Position numbers and translations under genes: made by a program. A stretch of DNA of 43,561 bases from Candidatus Woesearchaeota archaeon (GTDB taxonomy: Archaea > Nanobdellota > Nanobdellia > Woesearchaeales > WJKR01): assembly GCA_016927245.1 (NCBI GenBank), contig JAFGNA010000002.1, positions 1 through 43,561 of the forward strand, read 5' to 3'. This document shows positions 3-8,842 of the stretch, piece by piece (the first letter of the stretch is position 1; every line of letters starts with the position of its first letter). The notes under the pieces are model-generated. The model ran no database searches, was not told the DNA's origin, and worked only from the letters and a program-made list of their open reading frames with translations.

Positions 3-623
3 GGTGAGGTAGACGAAAGTGGTTGTGAGGTTTACCGTTGTCCTACGCATGAGGTTGTTTGTGTCATGCCTGTTTGTGATGATGGTGAAAGGCCATACTT
101 TACGGGTGAGTATGATGGAGCTGGATGCAAGATATTCAGATGTCACGAGTTCGTCTGCCCTGAAAATTGCGTTTGTACGGGAAATGTTATCACTTGTCCG
201 ACGACAGAAGAGAAACCTGTCACGGTTGGAATCGTCACGTCTGAAGGCCCGAGAAATATTTCTGTAGAGAAGATTGCCGAGGACGCCGTTTCGATAAGGG
301 AAGGATCAACTTCTGTCAGGACTTCAAACAGGTTAGTGATTGAAGAAGAACGGTTATTGATGGAAACTTCACAGGGTGACAAAGAAGTAAAGGTGATGCC
401 ATCAATTGCTTCAGAAACCGCGACGAGCCAATTGGGATTACAGGATTATGAGATAGAATTAAAGGATGTCGGAAAACCGGTTTATGAAATCACTGGAAAA
501 AAAGATGTGAGGATTATCGGTTTCATCAAAGCCAAGATGGTGGTAAAGAGCCAGATCAATGCGGAGACCGGAATCATAGAAGAAACTGAAAAACCTTGGT
601 GGAGCTTCTTAGCTAAAGAATAA
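3..623 (+). CDS. Cys-rich secreted-type protein, 5' end missing
   Basis: The reading frame is open from the left edge to the TAA at 621-623, so the N-terminus lies outside the window. The first methionine inside it, at 66, is probably internal because Cys-rich sequence continues upstream of it. The visible N-terminal third carries a repeated pattern of GEYD/GEVD followed by GC, a short spacer and another Cys, which looks like a tandem disulfide-rich repeat of the kind found in secreted archaeal proteins. The C-terminal part, from about residue 75 of the visible sequence, has no Cys and looks like a beta-rich domain. The codons are more A/T-rich than in the serpin gene next door. The stop lies 9 bases from the end of the convergent serpin gene. 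I do not recognise a family, and no function is assigned. Confidence 0.75.
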   Translation, partial: GEVDESGCEVYRCPTHEVVCVMPVCDDGERPYFTGEYDGAGCKIFRCHEFVCPENCVCTGNVITCPTTEEKPVTVGIVTSEGPRNISVEKIAEDAVSIREGSTSVRTSNRLVIEEERLLMETSQGDKEVKVMPSIASETATSQLGLQDYEIELKDVGKPVYEITGKKDVRIIGFIKAKMVVKSQINAETGIIEETEKPWWSFLAKE

Positions 624-632
624 TTTTTCTTC

Positions 633-2237
633 TTATCTCGGGTCGGCGACCTTCCCCATGAACAGGATGTTCCCCGTCTCCCGCTCCTGGATGAGGAAGA
701 GGAACGGGTGGTCCGCCCTGAACACGACGTAGCGAGGACGCATAGCCCCCGCTGCCATCGTGATCGTCGTCACCGCGGCAGCCTCGGTGCCCTCCTCGTA
801 GACGTCGATGTACGCATCATGCAAGACCTCCTCGATGTACAACAAGTCCGTCCCGTCCATCCCGGAGAAATCCGCGCCTGGCCACGTAAACGGCAGGCTC
901 ATACCCATGCGCCGCAAGTGGTCTGACAACGCGTAGGAGGTCTCGAACGTGAACTTGGGCAAGTAGACATAGACGGTCTCCGGCACGAGCCCTTCACGCC
1001 ACTCCTTGAGCTGCTCCTCAGTCAACAGCGACTCGAGCTGGGCCATATCGCAGAGCTGCGGCTCTGCCCTTTCAGGCCCGAACCACAGCTGCGTCTCTTG
1101 GTCCGGTGGCTCCGTCCTCGGGAGGAGGACGAGCATGGACACCTTGTCCCCTTGGTAGGGCAGCTCGAGCACCTGCACGCCATCAGCTTCGGTGTAGTTG
1201 AGCCTCACTTCGTCGTCCGTGAGCCGCATCATCGGGACCGCGACGCTCGAGCCCGAGGCGAGCGTGAAATCTTCCGGCGCCGTGTCCTTCTTGTCGAACT
1301 GGTGCTCCCACTTCCCCTTGAAGTAGATCGCGTTCGTCAGGACGGCGCGGCTGAGGTCATGGAACATGTCCGGGGAGACCACCTCCCTTATCTTGTGGTT
1401 CGTGTGCTTGGAGGCCCATCTATTGATATCAGCGCTCGCGCCGCCCGGATTGTTGACGAAGTCGAGATTCCTCACCTCGCCCAGGTAATACCGCTCGATA
1501 GTGTCCTTGTACGATGCCAGGAACGGATATCCATCCTGCAACCAGAGAGCATTGGCCATGCCGAGCTCGTACTTCCCTCTGGCCTTGTTCAGAGTGTTCA
1601 ACACCCTGGCATACGCGGACCGCCGCGTCGCGTCGTCCTCCGGGAACCCGAAGACGCCCCGTATCTCGCCAGCGGTGTCCCCACGAGCGCCCTCGTACAC
1701 CATCGCCACGGCAGTGGAGATGCTCCAAGGAGAGAAGAAAACGTTCTCGCCGGGCTCCTCGTTCAGCTGGGCGTAAAGGTCCATGGCGAACTCGTTGTTC
1801 GCCCGCACTACCTCGTTGATGCCCGCTGCCGTGGCCCTGCTGTCATCCGCCGCCGGGACGAAGACGTCACCCCACCCGAACGCGAAGAAGGCATAGGACA
1901 GGAGCCCGACCACGACGACGGCACCCAGTATGACGCTCCTCCTCGCGTCCCACCGCACCAAGGACGCCTTGTTCTTGACGAACCTAGCAAGCTTTACCAA
2001 CGCGCAGGCGAGGAGGTAGAGCCAAGCGACCTCCAAGAAGAAGCCGATGATACCCCCAATGATGCCTCCTGCGCTCATGAAGAGGGAGAGAGGGAATCCT
2101 AACACCAACGCGACGGGCACGAGCGAGTTCCGCAGGCCCACGGAGAGCAGCTTGAAGCCCAGGAGACCTGTCACCACGAGGAGCAGGACCGCTACCACGA
2201 CCTTCTTTCCGTCAGGCTTGAAAAACGCTCTTACCAT
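633..2237 (-). CDS. Membrane-anchored serpin (serine protease inhibitor)
   Basis: The last 390 or so residues form a full-length serpin, a suicide inhibitor that traps proteases through its reactive-centre loop. The hinge EEGTEAAA is near perfect and is followed by a loop ending in MAAGAMRP and by the strand FRADHPFLFLI. Aligned with antitrypsin, P1 falls on or next to Gly/Ala, which would suit an elastase- or subtilisin-like target; this assignment is uncertain by one or two residues. Unlike typical serpins of about 380 residues, the protein has an extra N-terminus of about 135 residues with four hydrophobic segments (about 12-32, 37-56, 58-86, 102-121), so the inhibitor is probably displayed outside the cell on the membrane. 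The ATG at 2237 is preferred over GTG at 2246 because the TATA box at 2263-2276 fits a leaderless start there. It is divergent from a Kazal-like lipoprotein gene. Confidence 0.93.
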   Translation of the reverse strand: MVRAFFKPDGKKVVVAVLLLVVTGLLGFKLLSVGLRNSLVPVALVLGFPLSLFMSAGGIIGGIIGFFLEVAWLYLLACALVKLARFVKNKASLVRWDARRSVILGAVVVVGLLSYAFFAFGWGDVFVPAADDSRATAAGINEVVRANNEFAMDLYAQLNEEPGENVFFSPWSISTAVAMVYEGARGDTAGEIRGVFGFPEDDATRRSAYARVLNTLNKARGKYELGMANALWLQDGYPFLASYKDTIERYYLGEVRNLDFVNNPGGASADINRWASKHTNHKIREVVSPDMFHDLSRAVLTNAIYFKGKWEHQFDKKDTAPEDFTLASGSSVAVPMMRLTDDEVRLNYTEADGVQVLELPYQGDKVSMLVLLPRTEPPDQETQLWFGPERAEPQLCDMAQLESLLTEEQLKEWREGLVPETVYVYLPKFTFETSYALSDHLRRMGMSLPFTWPGADFSGMDGTDLLYIEEVLHDAYIDVYEEGTEAAAVTTITMAAGAMRPRYVVFRADHPFLFLIQERETGNILFMGKVADPR

Positions 2238-2262
2238 GCCAACCACTTATCACTCCCCCAAT

Positions 2263-2276
2263 CATATATAAATATA
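2263..2276 (-). promoter_or_regulatory. TATA box of the serpin gene
   Basis: This A/T run lies about 26-39 bases before the serpin ATG at 2237, the usual archaeal distance for a leaderless mRNA. It is in the short divergent region shared with the lipoprotein gene. Confidence 0.6.
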
Positions 2277-2340
2277 TGGGGTGGCCAATGACTGCCCCTA
2301 GGGAGGTGATAACTGCAACCGCCTTCGCATCGAAAACAGC

Positions 2341-2350
2341 ATTTATATAT
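2341..2350 (+). promoter_or_regulatory. TATA box of the Kazal-like lipoprotein gene
   Basis: ATTTATATAT lies about 40-50 bases before the ATG at 2391, leaving a leader of roughly 15-20 bases. A Shine-Dalgarno-like GGGTGA at 2380-2385 precedes the ATG. Confidence 0.55.
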
Positions 2351-2390
2351 TTCCTTATCTTTAGCAGCAAAAACACAAGGGTGAATCGAC

Positions 2391-3215
2391 ATGAGAACCT
2401 TCATCATCGGATTATTGGTGGCGGCCGCCCTCCTGTTATTGGCGTGCGCCCAGGAAGAGAGCATCAACAGTTTCGAGGAATGCGTCGCCGCGGGCTACCC
2501 CATCATGGAATCCTATCCGCGACAGTGCAGCACCGGCCAGCAAACCTTCGCTGAGACCATAACAGGCAACGATACTGATCAGGAGCCCATCGGCGGCGAG
2601 CGCGACGAGCACAACTGCTTAGTGGCCGCCGGTTACTCCTATGACGAGGAGGTCGGCGCGTGCACCCGCTCCTGGGAGCTCGATGAGGAGCAACGGGCAG
2701 CGGCGAGGATCGCTGTCCAGAGCCTCAGCTCCGAAGGGTGGACTGTCACAGAAGTCCTCCTCGCAGACAACTGCGACGCGTGCTACACCGTCGAGCTCGA
2801 CCGCAACGGTGCGAGGAACACCCTCTCCCTAGCGGACGGCAAGGTCATCGACGCCAGCGGCGGCGACTGGGCGTGCACCATGGAATACCAGCCGGTATGC
2901 GGATTCGCCCAGGTGCAGTGCGTCACGGAGCCATGCCTGCCCGTACAGCAGACGTTCAGCAACCGGTGCGTGGCCGAAGCAGCGGGCGCGTTCAACATCA
3001 CGGACGGCGCGTGCGAGGACGCCGTGAACCCCGAGGGTGCTTGCTGGTCCTTCGACGGCACCTGGCTTCCTGAGTACCAGGAGTGCGAGGGCATGTCCGA
3101 GGAGCAGTGCGAGAACCTCGGCGGCACGTATGACGGCTGCGCCTCGGCGTGCAGGCACGACCCCGACGCGGAGATCTGCATCGAGGTGTGCGTCCCGGTG
3201 TGCGCGTTCTCCTGA
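2391..3215 (+). CDS. Cys-rich lipoprotein with Kazal-like domain
   Basis: The N-terminus is a lipoprotein signal peptide ending in a lipobox-like LLLACA, so the mature protein is probably lipid-anchored at Cys19 on the outer face of the membrane. After it comes a FEECVAAGYPIMESYP motif seen in many archaeal surface proteins. A domain without disulfide spacing follows at about residues 95-160. At about 160-205 there is a Kazal-like module (EYQPVCGF, TFSNRC, a terminal DGAC). A further Cys-rich tail ends the protein. Kazal domains are canonical-loop serine protease inhibitors, but the short loop here makes inhibitory activity an inference. The gene is divergent from the serpin, and the pairing of two inhibitor folds is notable. 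Its end lies 2 bases from the convergent flavodoxin gene. Confidence 0.8.
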   Translation: MRTFIIGLLVAAALLLLACAQEESINSFEECVAAGYPIMESYPRQCSTGQQTFAETITGNDTDQEPIGGERDEHNCLVAAGYSYDEEVGACTRSWELDEEQRAAARIAVQSLSSEGWTVTEVLLADNCDACYTVELDRNGARNTLSLADGKVIDASGGDWACTMEYQPVCGFAQVQCVTEPCLPVQQTFSNRCVAEAAGAFNITDGACEDAVNPEGACWSFDGTWLPEYQECEGMSEEQCENLGGTYDGCASACRHDPDAEICIEVCVPVCAFS

Positions 3216-4451: not shown

Positions 4452-5045
4452 TCAGCCGATCGTGATGATCCTGCCTAGCGGTCCGAGGTTGTAACAAGCG
4501 GTGTTCCCTATCTCGTCCTCTGCGCCTTCCGCCTCGTGGATGTGGCCTGACACGGCGTACAGGGGTTTGAGTAGCTTGATGGCTTGGTTCACGCTCCTGT
4601 TCCCGACGTGCTTGCCGTGGATGCGGTCCAGCTTCGTCCCGTCTGGCGGTGCGTGCGTGACGAGCACGGTGGGTAGGGCTGCGTGCGCGCTCTTCGCCCA
4701 TTCCTTCACCTGCTCCTCCAACCCCTTGTCGTGGCTGCCGAACCCGCCGCCGCCCCAGAGCAGGAGCCGCACGCCTTTTTGCACGACCTCCTCGCCGTGC
4801 ACGAACGAGAGCCGGCGATACCGCTTGCACGCCTCCCTGAGCGTCCTTGCCTCCTCGTGGTTGCCATGGATGAGGAGCACGGGCTTCCGCCACTTGCTGA
4901 ATTCGTTGAGCGTCTTGTCCAGGTCGAACTCGAACACAGTGGGGTCTCCTGCGCACACGATGAGATCAGCGTTTCTCGCCCGCTCACCCATCTGAGGCAG
5001 GAGCTCGTAGCGGTTGTGGAAGTCCGAGAAGCAGTAGATGTTCAT
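4452..5045 (-). CDS. Calcineurin-like metallophosphoesterase
   Basis: All motifs of the two-metal phosphoesterase fold are present: SDFH with Asp8 and His10, AGDP with Asp34, HGNHEE with Asn62 and His63, VTHAPPDG with a metal-binding His, and SGHIHEA near the C-terminus. The 197-residue length matches the small single-domain YfcE/MJ0936-like phosphodiesterase group; the substrate is unknown. Its ATG overlaps the stop of the M49 peptidase gene by four bases (ATGA), so the two are translationally coupled and share the operon led by the double-Lrp regulator. Confidence 0.92.
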   Translation of the reverse strand: MNIYCFSDFHNRYELLPQMGERARNADLIVCAGDPTVFEFDLDKTLNEFSKWRKPVLLIHGNHEEARTLREACKRYRRLSFVHGEEVVQKGVRLLLWGGGGFGSHDKGLEEQVKEWAKSAHAALPTVLVTHAPPDGTKLDRIHGKHVGNRSVNQAIKLLKPLYAVSGHIHEAEGAEDEIGNTACYNLGPLGRIITIG

Positions 5046-6574
5046 TTTCCGAGCGGGGTTATTGGCTTGATATCGATGGGGATGTCGCTCATGCCGTCGA
5101 GGACCTCCTTGACGTGCCCTGGCATGATGTTATACTTCTTGAGCAGCGCCTCAGCACCGGCCCGGTCGCCCTCGTCCTCGATGAGGAGTAGTCGCTTGAC
5201 GAGCAGGAGCAATGATTCCTTGGCTTGATCGCGGTCGATCACTAATCTTCTTCCTTCCAGCCTGGCCGCTCCTTGCTCTTCGAGCCAATTGTACGCGAGC
5301 ATGTTCGCGCCGGCGTGCGCCTCGCCTAGCCCGAAGCGGATGCTGCGGAAGATTCCCGCGACGTACGTGACCAGGACTTCCTCGGCCATCCTTTTCTCCA
5401 GGACGCCGCTCTCGGCGAGGACGGATGCGTTGTGGACGCCCAAGAGGTCGGCCTTTGCCTCTTCGATGAACGGATAGCTTTCTTTGAGCTCCTTGTTCAC
5501 CGTGGTCTCCCGGCCGTCCTTCTTGATGATGCCTGGGCCGATGCCGTGGCTGATCTCGTGCAGGAGGATGTGGAGGAAGTACGCGCCGAACGAGCAATGC
5601 TTCCTGGTCTCGTCGTCGAGGAGCCGTTGGGTGATGGGTTGCCAGCACGTGGCGAACTTCGCCTCGGCTACGTTCTTGAGCAGGACCTTCTTGCTCCCTT
5701 TCTCTTGGCGCACGCGCTCGTCGTTGGGCAGGTTGAACGCGGTGAAGTGGATGCCTGCACGGCCGTCCCCTGCGCTGTGCAGGAGGTTGACGATCCTGAT
5801 AGGCGCTCGCCGCCCGCTACGGTTCGCTCGGTGCTCGTCAGGCAGCGGCAGTCGTTCTTCCAGGAGCTGCACGTGCTCTTCGAGGTGGCGTAGCTCGGCC
5901 GTTGCCTCTTCGTCCACGAGGCCGATGAAGGATTCGTATGCTGCCTTGATGCCGTTGAGCCGGTCCTCGTACACCTCGTACGGACCGATGGTGACCTCTA
6001 ATGAGGAGTCGAGGTCCAGCCAGGCCACGTCGCTCTCGTAGTAGTCGTCCGTGAGGAGCGCTTGTGCGCGCAGTTCGAGGAAGCGCCGCAGCGACTCGTT
6101 GTCCGCGTGTTTTGCCGCTTGCTGGAGGTGCTCTGCCGCCTTCGCGAGGAGGTCTGCGTAGTGGTCGTGGTAGGGAATCGCGATGAGCCTGTCTTCTTTT
6201 CGCCTGATGATGGTGTAGTGGTTGGTGAAGGATTCGCGGTCTTCGGGGTGTCGTCGGAGCCAGCAGTCCCATTCTTGCTTGGTGAGGTCGTCGGGGTAGA
6301 ACGCGGCTCCTTTCGGCTTCTCATGCCCGGTGATGAACGGCTTGTCGTGCTCGGTGCGGTCGAACGGGCCGTAGTGCGTGCGGAATCGCTCTAGTGATGC
6401 GTGGTCGCCCTTCTCTTTGAGGCTTGCGAGCACCGCTTCGTTCTTGCTGTACGCCTGTCGGAGGAAGAGCTGTCCCATGATGTCAGATGCGGCGGTGAGG
6501 TGGCGGAGGAGCTCGCGGTCCAGTCGCTCCGTGCCTGCCGGGGCGGTGAGTCTTGTGGGTTGCAGTCGTTCCAT
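5042..6574 (-). CDS. M49 family metallopeptidase (DPP III-like)
   Basis: The zinc site is HEISH at residues 339-343 together with EEAKAD at 371-376, whose second Glu would be the third ligand. The surrounding GIGP and VNKELKE match the DPP III-like branch best known from Nudix-fused plant and bacterial proteins, where the zinc motif is HEXXH, not the HEXXGH of classic DPP III. At 510 residues it is a complete catalytic unit without a Nudix domain. Family members remove dipeptides from peptide N-termini, so a cytosolic role in peptide turnover is likely. The ATG at 6574 is chosen because the upstream 169 codons of open frame lie inside the Lrp gene and look like out-of-frame Arg/His-rich sequence. 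It lies 26 bases after the Lrp gene and overlaps the phosphoesterase gene. Confidence 0.9.
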   Translation of the reverse strand: MERLQPTRLTAPAGTERLDRELLRHLTAASDIMGQLFLRQAYSKNEAVLASLKEKGDHASLERFRTHYGPFDRTEHDKPFITGHEKPKGAAFYPDDLTKQEWDCWLRRHPEDRESFTNHYTIIRRKEDRLIAIPYHDHYADLLAKAAEHLQQAAKHADNESLRRFLELRAQALLTDDYYESDVAWLDLDSSLEVTIGPYEVYEDRLNGIKAAYESFIGLVDEEATAELRHLEEHVQLLEERLPLPDEHRANRSGRRAPIRIVNLLHSAGDGRAGIHFTAFNLPNDERVRQEKGSKKVLLKNVAEAKFATCWQPITQRLLDDETRKHCSFGAYFLHILLHEISHGIGPGIIKKDGRETTVNKELKESYPFIEEAKADLLGVHNASVLAESGVLEKRMAEEVLVTYVAGIFRSIRFGLGEAHAGANMLAYNWLEEQGAARLEGRRLVIDRDQAKESLLLLVKRLLLIEDEGDRAGAEALLKKYNIMPGHVKEVLDGMSDIPIDIKPITPLGK

Positions 6575-6600
6575 GGTCGCTCGTCCTCTCGTTCGTTCTT

Positions 6601-7566
6601 TTAAGCTTTCCCGTTCTCGTTGCGCGGGACGAAGTCGTACTTGGTGATGGCGTCCGATATGAGTGTGCGGTAGTTCTTGACCGTGAATGCTTTCCTGAGG
6701 TCGTTGATGACGTGCCGTTCCTTGCCCATTCTTTCTGTGGTGATGAAGAGGTCGTACGGGCCTATGATCTTGGTCACTGTGATGATGTTCTTGTGTTGCT
6801 TGCAGAACTCTAGGAATCTGTACTCTTCCACCTCGTCCTCGAAGGAGAGGGTGATGAAGATGTGCTCTCGGGTGATTTCTAGCTTCTCGTGGTCGAGGTA
6901 TGCGGTGTAGCCTCTGATGATCTTCTTCCGCTCGAGCCATTTCTTGGTGGCGGTCACGGTCTTCGCGTCGATCTTGGTCTTCTTCGCGATGCTGGTCATG
7001 GCTGCTCGGGGGTCGTTGATGAGTGCTTGGAGCACTGCTCGCTGCTTGTCGTTCATGGCGATGATGTCCCGGTCCCCGCACGTGATGGTTTCCTTGATGT
7101 CGAAGTGCCGCTTGTGCAGGTAGTTCTTGGTGTAGTGGTGCTTTACGATGACGACGTGCGCTTCCGCTACGCCCATGGCGTCCTTGAACGAGTACAGGAA
7201 TGACTTGTACTGCTTGTTGAAGTAGGAGAGGTTCGGGACGCAGTACTCTACCATGAGGTCTGCTCCTTGGCTGACTTCCTCTACGCGGACGACGTCAGGG
7301 TCTTGTTTCAGCGCTCGCTTGACCGCCGCGGTTTTCTGGTGGTCGAAGTCGTGGTAGTGGAGGAGGAGCAGCGCGTTGACTAGCCCGTGCTTCGCTGGGT
7401 CCGCGATGGTTTGGTAGTTCAGGATGGTCTTGTCCTTCTCTAGCTTCTGGAGGGTGTAGCTCGCTGTCTGCTGGCTTATATCGAGGAGTCGGGCGAGTTG
7501 CTTGGTCGTGATGCGGCTGTCGTTCAGGAGGTGGAACAAGAATCTACGCAATTTATTGGGGTCCAT
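6601..7566 (-). CDS. Double Lrp/AsnC-type transcriptional regulator
   Basis: The 321-residue protein is two Lrp-like units in one chain. The first has a helix-turn-helix at about residues 5-52 (TTKQLARLLDISQQTASYTL) and a RAM-like ligand domain to about 155. The second has a helix-turn-helix at about 172-218 and another RAM-like half to the end. Single Lrp proteins are about 150 residues, so this looks like a fused pseudo-dimer. It is the first gene of an operon with the M49 peptidase and the phosphoesterase, which suggests it senses amino acids or peptides and controls their turnover; that is inference. The ATG at 7566 is about 21-30 bases after a TATA box. Confidence 0.85.
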   Translation of the reverse strand: MDPNKLRRFLFHLLNDSRITTKQLARLLDISQQTASYTLQKLEKDKTILNYQTIADPAKHGLVNALLLLHYHDFDHQKTAAVKRALKQDPDVVRVEEVSQGADLMVEYCVPNLSYFNKQYKSFLYSFKDAMGVAEAHVVIVKHHYTKNYLHKRHFDIKETITCGDRDIIAMNDKQRAVLQALINDPRAAMTSIAKKTKIDAKTVTATKKWLERKKIIRGYTAYLDHEKLEITREHIFITLSFEDEVEEYRFLEFCKQHKNIITVTKIIGPYDLFITTERMGKERHVINDLRKAFTVKNYRTLISDAITKYDFVPRNENGKA

Positions 7567-7586
7567 GTTGGTACATATACATTGAT

Positions 7587-7596
7587 TATTTAAATA
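7587..7596 (-). promoter_or_regulatory. TATA box of the double-Lrp/M49 operon
   Basis: The palindromic TATTTAAATA lies 21-30 bases before the ATG at 7566. Confidence 0.6.
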
Positions 7597-7631
7597 GTTT
7601 TCTTTTGTTACTCTTTTCTTCTGGACCGGTG

Positions 7632-7638
7632 TTTATAA
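7632..7638 (+). promoter_or_regulatory. TATA box of the thiol-ligase cassette
   Basis: TTTATAA is followed about 25 bases later by the expected transcript start. GGTGA at 7666-7670 then serves as a ribosome-binding site for the ATG at 7676. Confidence 0.5.
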
Positions 7639-7675
7639 CTGAACGGCTCGCTATAATCAGGGTTCGGTGAAGCGC

Positions 7676-8842
7676 ATGAAAGACATCACGGTGGGCATGG
7701 AACTGGAGCTGCTCGTGCTCGATGAGCACTACAGGCCGGCCAACGAGGCTGACCGCCTGCTCGCGCACGGCCTCCCCGGCGTCATCCCTGAGTGCAGCAA
7801 GGCCATGATAGAAGTGAACACTATCCCTGGGGACATCTTCGCGGTCCGTGACGATCTCTACGCCAAGCTGCGCGCCCTTGCCAGCGTGGCAGAGCAGGAG
7901 AACCTCCGCGTGCTCCCCCTAGACATGGCCTACGGCGACTTCACGCCGGTGCTGCGCAGCGGCCCTCGCTATGAGGCCAAGGCAAGACTGCTCGGCGACA
8001 AGTTCTCTCGATGCGGCGGCATCGTTGGCCAGCACACGCACTTCGCGCTGCTGCCTGACGATGACGATTGCGTCCGCCAGGTGAACTTCCTCATAGCAGC
8101 AGACCCTGTCGGCATCGCGACGATGGGTGCGAGCCCCCGCAAGGGCGTGTGGAACGCCCGCTTGCTGACCTATCGCAACGAGGTGTACGGCGAGTTCGCC
8201 TACCAGAGCGGCCTGCAGCCATTGAAGAGGAGCTTTGCTTCCTACCTGCACGAGCTCGAGGAGGAATTCGTCCGTTTCCAGTCTTTGGCCGCCGAGCGGG
8301 CGGTGAGCATCGACGGCATTATGGACAGCTACAACTCGATAGCGGGTCCTGTCCGCCTGACGAGGCACGGCACGGTCGAGACGAGGACTGCCGGCGCGAA
8401 CCCTGACATAGCCAGGTCTATCGGCTATTCTGCCTTGCTGCTAGGCGGTATGCGCCGCATCGTGGCCGAAGGCGTTGCTGGGGAGGAGCGGCTACTATAC
8501 GCGCTGACCGGCACGGAGAGTCATGAGGAGCAGTACGCGTATCTTTCCCGGTTGAGCGAGCAGGCGTTGCGGCTCGGCACGCACGACCCTGAGGTGTCCC
8601 TTTATGTTGATTCGTTCACGGCGTACTGCGCTGGTGGCTTGTCGGCCGATGAGCGCTTGTTGGCGGAGGCGTACCTGTGCCCTGAGGACGAGTCCCCTGG
8701 TGCTGTGCTGCGGCGTTGCGTCGATGCCGCTGGTGGCGTCGTGGATGATGCGTTGGCAAGGACGCTGCACCGCGTGATGGATGCTCATTATTTCCGGCCC
8801 TCGCTGCGAGCGCATCCTGTTATGTGCGAGGTGGTCCGCTGA
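7676..8842 (+). CDS. Glutamate-cysteine ligase of the GCS2 family
   Basis: The N-terminus has the GMELE glutamate/metal motif (residues 7-11). GQHTHFALL, GASPRKGVWNAR and GTVETRTAG follow in the order expected for the GCS2 (PF04107) family, in which EgtA, YbdK-like enzymes and plant-type glutamate-cysteine ligases join the gamma-carboxyl of glutamate to an amine. The length of 388 residues is normal. The start was set at ATG 7676 because GGTGA lies just upstream; GTG at 7667 would add three residues. The stop overlaps the next start by one base (TGATG), so it is coupled to a GshB-like ligase and probably provides its gamma-glutamyl-cysteine substrate. The exact amine accepted is inferred from this pairing. 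Confidence 0.85.
   Translation: MKDITVGMELELLVLDEHYRPANEADRLLAHGLPGVIPECSKAMIEVNTIPGDIFAVRDDLYAKLRALASVAEQENLRVLPLDMAYGDFTPVLRSGPRYEAKARLLGDKFSRCGGIVGQHTHFALLPDDDDCVRQVNFLIAADPVGIATMGASPRKGVWNARLLTYRNEVYGEFAYQSGLQPLKRSFASYLHELEEEFVRFQSLAAERAVSIDGIMDSYNSIAGPVRLTRHGTVETRTAGANPDIARSIGYSALLLGGMRRIVAEGVAGEERLLYALTGTESHEEQYAYLSRLSEQALRLGTHDPEVSLYVDSFTAYCAGGLSADERLLAEAYLCPEDESPGAVLRRCVDAAGGVVDDALARTLHRVMDAHYFRPSLRAHPVMCEVVR

Follow-up and report, generated by a model that had tools for sequence, protein, structure and literature searches.

Genes and genome

The window, i.e., the 43,561-nucleotide stretch of DNA analysed here, is the whole of contig C3 in a 1.11-Mb genome (24 contigs) that is rated 100% complete. 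It carries two divergent genes, one for a serpin and one for a mosaic cysteine-rich lipoprotein (Table 1). Relatives of the serpin begin with MVREFFKP and a TATA-like box lies at 2272-2265, so the ATG at 2237 is probably the true start of the serpin gene. The gap between the genes is 153 bases from this ATG and 144 bases from the listed GTG, and each gene is preceded by a TATA-like box; the initial annotation described a divergent promoter of 150 bases. A sigma-70 scan of the intergenic region was set aside because it is meaningless for an archaeon, and an Rfam search of the window returned no RNA.

Table 1. Features of the serpin and lipoprotein genes (window positions)
Feature	Position	Strand	Remarks
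Serpin gene	633..2237	-	534 aa from the ATG; 537 aa as listed, from GTG 2246
Serpin domain	639..1802	-	
Reactive centre loop	720..794	-	Inhibitory hinge EGTEAAAVT
Last membrane helix	1881..1946	-	Residues 98-119; position corresponds to the single N-terminal anchor in other serpins of the order
N-terminal membrane module	1959..2237	-	Residues 1-93 (KP...AC/SC); AlphaFold2 helices 10-33 and 40-93; fused
TATA-like box (TTTATATA) before serpin	2265..2272	-	
TATA-like box (TTTATATA) before lipoprotein	2342..2349	+	
Mosaic cysteine-rich lipoprotein	2391..3215	+	274 aa
Signal peptide	2391..2447	+	Lipobox LLAC; lipidated Cys19 expected
Module M1	2469..2555	+	C-x..ESYPRQC; no Pfam name
Module M2	2598..2675	+	DEH-C..AAGY..C-RSW; no Pfam name
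Module M3	2874..3014	+	Kazal unit, diverged: no Cys1 or Cys5, inserted QC..PC loop, Met at P1 (2880-2882)
Module M4	3042..3209	+	..GGTYDGCASACRHDP..; no Pfam name

Elongation factor 2 identities place the genome among Woesearchaeota-like DPANN archaea: they amount to 87% with a same-genus genome, 73% with a MAG labelled Nanoarchaeia, and 70% and 67% with a pair of MAGs labelled Woesearchaeota. We compared it with two samples, one of 60 genomes (its own, one of the same genus and 58 of the same order) and one of 352 from the order. In the first, 12 genomes have a serpin that passes the cut-off; in the second, 56 have a serpin match, a frequency to be set against the earlier statement that serpins are uncommon in archaea. 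Three surface serpins are encoded in the window's own genome, the other two being lipobox types. No serpin was found in the same-genus genome (G001, 92% complete), which suggests that it is dispensable there; the genes of window 4452-8842 keep their order in part in that genome, and the block from the serpin to the methyltransferase is missing from the syntenic place. The literature we searched, which covers few subscription journals, yielded no paper on serpins in DPANN archaea or Woesearchaeota.

The serpin domain and its reactive loop

The protein belongs to the serpin superfamily (PF00079, MEROPS I4) by a full-length domain far above the curated cut-off: PF00079 (Pfam) matches residues 149-536 with 387 bits against a cut-off of 27 (E 1.2e-115, profile positions 2-370 of 370). 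Its predicted structure is that of a serpin as well. An AlphaFold2 model built from 29 sequences has a pLDDT of 86.6 and an inserted loop, and the best PDB fold matches in Foldseek are cleaved, loop-inserted serpins, headed by the cleaved elastase inhibitor 1hle (target TM 0.94). The best sequence match among solved structures is 8gxv ("Proteinase inhibitor I4 serpin", E 1.4e-74), presumably a serpin of bacterial origin; it spans only the serpin domain (residues 150-536), leaving the membrane module of the window's serpin outside the match.

The loop (EEGTEAAAVTTITMAAGAMRPRYVVF) has the two features that mark inhibitory serpins, a hinge of small residues (G-T-E-A-A-A-x-T) and a full-length reactive loop (EGTEAAAVTTITMAAGAMRPRYVVF). 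Across 109 distinct loops from serpin loci, the hinge is near-invariant and resembles EGTEAAAVT while the bait region varies widely, but the search pattern itself demands a hinge-like start, so this count shows variation beyond the hinge and is not an unbiased rate. Residue counting from the hinge predicts Gly497-Ala498 as P1-P1' (codons 747-749 and 744-746), and all five proteins that share one membrane architecture keep these two residues unchanged. Judged by its domain and canonical hinge, this is a full-length serpin of the inhibitory type. The loop-inserted model is consistent with an inhibitory serpin, without proving it; such a serpin would undergo a stressed-to-relaxed change and form a covalent complex with the protease.

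Surface placement and the membrane module

Surface placement is ordinary for serpins of this order. We drew 33 distinct serpins from 46 loci, leaving out ORFs that failed the pattern (e.g., truncated ones): 17 have a lipobox, 14 have a hydrophobic N-terminus (which may equally be a cleaved signal), two are polytopic, with several segments, and none is without an anchor or signal. Among the 14, two (L013 and L226) look lipobox-like too. Membrane anchoring had been called rarer still than archaeal serpins themselves, a view that does not survive this count, in which all 33 have an N-terminal hydrophobic segment or a lipobox. A 2021 survey of the superfamily likewise attributes N-terminal transport peptides to most prokaryotic serpins, and membrane anchoring to some (PMC8233489).

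What is unusual about the window's serpin is a new arrangement in which a membrane module is fused ahead of this ordinary anchor. The initial annotation counted four added membrane segments. Hydropathy does give four hydrophobic segments in the N-terminus, but AlphaFold2 makes three helices, one of them long (Table 1). The number matters for orientation: if the N-terminus is inside, four crossings put the C-terminus inside as well. The four segments and the positively charged N-terminus thus speak for a serpin domain in the cytoplasm, anchored at the inner face of the membrane. We consider this placement quite improbable, because AlphaFold2 draws only three helices, the loop ahead of the last helix has seven K/R against one D/E, the last helix and the linker after it align with the single anchor of ordinary, outward-facing relatives, and in a split form from another genome (L073, below) the serpin has a lipobox of its own. 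The three-helix model, the positive loop and the anchor alignment would be best accommodated by three crossings and a serpin domain outside, and we therefore favour an outward topology as a prediction.

The module is conserved in five proteins, with an invariant KP near its start and an invariant C in its last helix. It is fused in the same manner in L067 (66% over the whole protein), L068 (65%), L069 (58%) and L263 (57%, same order). A module profile also found two stand-alone copies, one of 95 aa in L058:1501-1788 (E 1e-5) and one of 104 aa in L073:5642-5956, the latter a modest match (E 4e-4 to 6e-4 before iteration). The L073 copy, from an Aenigmatarchaeota MAG, ends 20 nt upstream of a lipobox serpin gene, which suggests that one lineage encodes separately what others have fused; no second split pair was seen. 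Iterating the profile gave no further copy except a doubtful one in the window's own genome (E 0.04).

Such a module could make the serpin a sensor, with cleavage and loop insertion signalling through the membrane. The invariant KP and C would suit this, and the occurrence of the split gene next to a serpin in a second lineage points to a functional tie. We nevertheless rate a sensor as very unlikely, given that the module has no known signalling domain and may merely anchor or stabilise, and that the tie depends on one split pair whose module match was modest before iteration. If the fused and split forms hold up, they would offer a first handle on a partner of an archaeal serpin.

Two of the fused forms share a near-identical serpin locus: L067 and L068, labelled as Lokiarchaeota and Portnoybacteria MAGs, have 89% DNA identity over 1,948 bases including upstream DNA, so recent transfer or wrong binning is likely. 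L068 also contains a seemingly bacterial DnaG primase and a transposase fragment (genes named by eye). Long N-terminal extensions of different kinds are found on serpins of Altiarchaeota (L071:5539-7212), Nitrosarchaeum (L118:5275-7086) and Nitrosopumilus (L136:4933-7101) MAGs, and Pfam gave no match of note on these extensions.

The lipoprotein and its Kazal unit

Four small modules make up the mosaic lipoprotein, and they turn up in other combinations in lipoproteins of the order. The protein has no full-length relatives; pieces occur in 19 of the 60 genomes (the inclusion of its own genome varies between tallies). As a whole it has no Pfam Kazal match at E<=1, no other Pfam match of note and no NCBIfam match, and a single-sequence structure prediction was unusable (mean pLDDT 39.1). 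Module M4 is also inserted in a ZnuA-type metal-binding protein (L038:1054-2310), inside a His-rich loop.

Module M3 (C-TMEYQPVC-G...N-RC...G-AC) falls outside the classical Kazal family (PF00050, MEROPS I1): the isolated segment scores 19.7 bits against PF00050, below the 21-bit cut-off, and it does not have six cysteines paired 1-5/2-4/3-6. Profile comparison nonetheless relates it to Kazal domains. In hhalign, window-type units matched true (plain) Kazal units at 99.2%, and a ten-unit profile (A4) matched the solved structures of ovomucoid (3.4e-9), GmSPI-2 (5e-7) and an "Elastase inhibitor" (7e-7), which we take to be from a sea anemone. The reactive segment of M3 is shared with classical and non-classical members alike: the third domain of turkey ovomucoid has CTLEYRPLCG (C-T-x-E-Y-x-P-x-C-G in common) and the non-classical anemone inhibitor has the similar CTMQYDPVCG. 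In contrast to both, M3 lacks C1 and C5.

These two cysteines pair with each other in classical Kazal domains (pattern 1-5/2-4/3-6), as stated in PMC1236909. Among 31 distinct Kazal units that matched our pattern, a loose rule finds both in 27, neither in two and discordance in two; the 29 concordant units support, imperfectly, a rule of joint loss. An inserted cysteine pair occurs in 26 of the 31, and P1 is M in 11, K in six and L in five. M3 has Kazal homology, a C-x7-C reactive loop and both C4 and C6, i.e., the features of a non-classical, Kazal-derived unit with two disulphides.

A solved precedent is GmSPI-2 (2m5x/4hgu), which has two bridges and inhibits subtilisin and proteinase K (PMC4169406). 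As described there, seven residues separate its loop cysteines, P1 lies two positions past the first of them, and its only cysteine pairs are those equal to C2-C4 and C3-C6, all as in M3; by the same rule, P1 of M3 is Met. M3 differs in its inserted loop with two extra cysteines, in being one module of a lipoprotein and in its P1 (Thr in GmSPI-2). Homology and reactive-site spacing together identify M3 as a real but diverged two-disulphide Kazal unit with an intact reactive site. The earlier label of Kazal-like lipoprotein therefore holds as regards the lipobox (LLAC) and Kazal homology by profile comparison, while the unit remains below the Pfam Kazal cut-off. Kazal-type units are widespread in proteins of the order (e.g., L233-L262), being present in 105 of the 352 genomes, many with an inserted cysteine pair and with variable P1.

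A joint module is not supported

Both proteins look like surface-placed protease inhibitors, as had been proposed. The initial annotation went further and suggested a joint module for defence or counter-defence, expressed from a shared divergent promoter. Such a module would account for two adjacent, divergent genes 144-153 bases apart, each with a TATA-like box and each apparently encoding a serine protease inhibitor, but co-occurrence in related genomes does not bear it out. Profiles of the four lipoprotein modules found nothing in 95 serpin loci (0/95; 966 kb with uneven flanks, two of the loci from the window's own genome), and in the parts of that genome that were read they found only the window copy. 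The lipoprotein is also missing beside all four other serpins that share the membrane architecture (0/4, with only 318 bases visible upstream in L068). Across the 352 genomes, a serpin occurs in 56, a Kazal unit in 105 and both in 15, against 16.7 expected (Fisher p 0.64), and the surrounding block is missing from its syntenic place in G001. The check on co-occurrence thus failed, and a joint module is highly improbable. Pairing is not supported, and by these comparisons the lipoprotein appears to be an independent, unrelated surface protein that lies beside the serpin.

Protease targets and likely role

The search for proteases in the window's genome covered the S8, Trypsin_2 and papain families and the GDSGG/GNSGG motif. 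S8 (subtilisin) was not found there and is present in 47 of the 60 genomes; Trypsin_2 (HtrA-type) and papain-type (C1) proteases were not found either, and the motif is absent from the 1.035 of 1.110 Mb that was scanned. By sequence appearance, an SppA-like protein is present. Since the usual endogenous targets were not found among the families searched, foreign proteases are favoured as targets, and the outward-facing orientation of the serpin gains indirect support. Two related ideas were rejected: that serpins go with a lack of S8 (in the set of 60, S8 is present in 10 of the 12 genomes that have a serpin, p 1.0), and that serpins are physically linked to subtilisins (no serpin shares a contig with S8 in the 60 genomes).

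We propose that the serpin is of the inhibitory type and works as a suicide inhibitor exposed on the outer side of the membrane, with a three-segment membrane module fused ahead of a surface serpin's ordinary N-terminal anchor. On cutting the exposed loop, a foreign serine protease would be trapped covalently during insertion of the loop into sheet A, which would turn the cell surface into a protease sink. The neighbouring lipoprotein would act independently, its one Kazal-type unit blocking a protease reversibly via Met at P1. We put the probability of this reading as a whole at about 0.55. Trapping of foreign serine proteases at the cell surface seems the likeliest role, with both the inhibition and the foreign origin of the targets predicted.

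Tk-serpin and Pnserpin are archaeal inhibitory serpins, and those tested inhibit subtilisin-, chymotrypsin- and elastase-like proteases (PMC5297747). The window's serpin resembles them in being archaeal with a conserved hinge, but differs in its fused membrane module and in coming from a genome in which searches for subtilisin, Trypsin_2 and papain-type proteases found none. The same difference weighs on the possibility that it is a housekeeping inhibitor of the cell's own proteases. Housekeeping has been proposed for archaeal serpins, and Tkserpin and Pnserpin inhibit endogenous proteases (PMC8233489); with no S8, Trypsin_2 or C1 protease found in this genome, we regard such a function as unlikely here. 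In the same survey, prokaryotic serpins have an "enigmatic" role and their patchy retention is "perplexing" (PMC8233489). With three surface serpins, and none found of three classical serine/cysteine target families, this reduced archaeal genome is a clean case for foreign targets.

A broader form of the surface-trapping proposal is speculative and, in our view, unlikely. A small DPANN cell with several surface serpins and different bait loops might thereby wear an antiprotease coat against proteases of a host or neighbours, and in one lineage the bait might be wired to a dedicated three-segment membrane partner (encoded separately in one lineage, fused elsewhere), which might sense a trapped protease or respond to it.

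The other neighbour of the serpin

Convergent with the serpin, window 3-623 encodes a protein that is rich in cysteine, ends in a PepSY-like part and is truncated by the contig edge; the G+C content here is 43.5% versus 57%. In L075, the gene directly downstream of a serpin (7244-7945) encodes a homologue. Homologues occur in 15 of the 56 serpin genomes against 8.9 expected (one-sided p 0.016, uncorrected and ignoring relatedness). Adjacency, seen with one other serpin (L075), is too rare for us to propose a module of this protein and the serpin. In the window's own genome, contig C24 begins with a near-repeat of the N-terminal part of 3-623, so both contig ends may belong to one gene.
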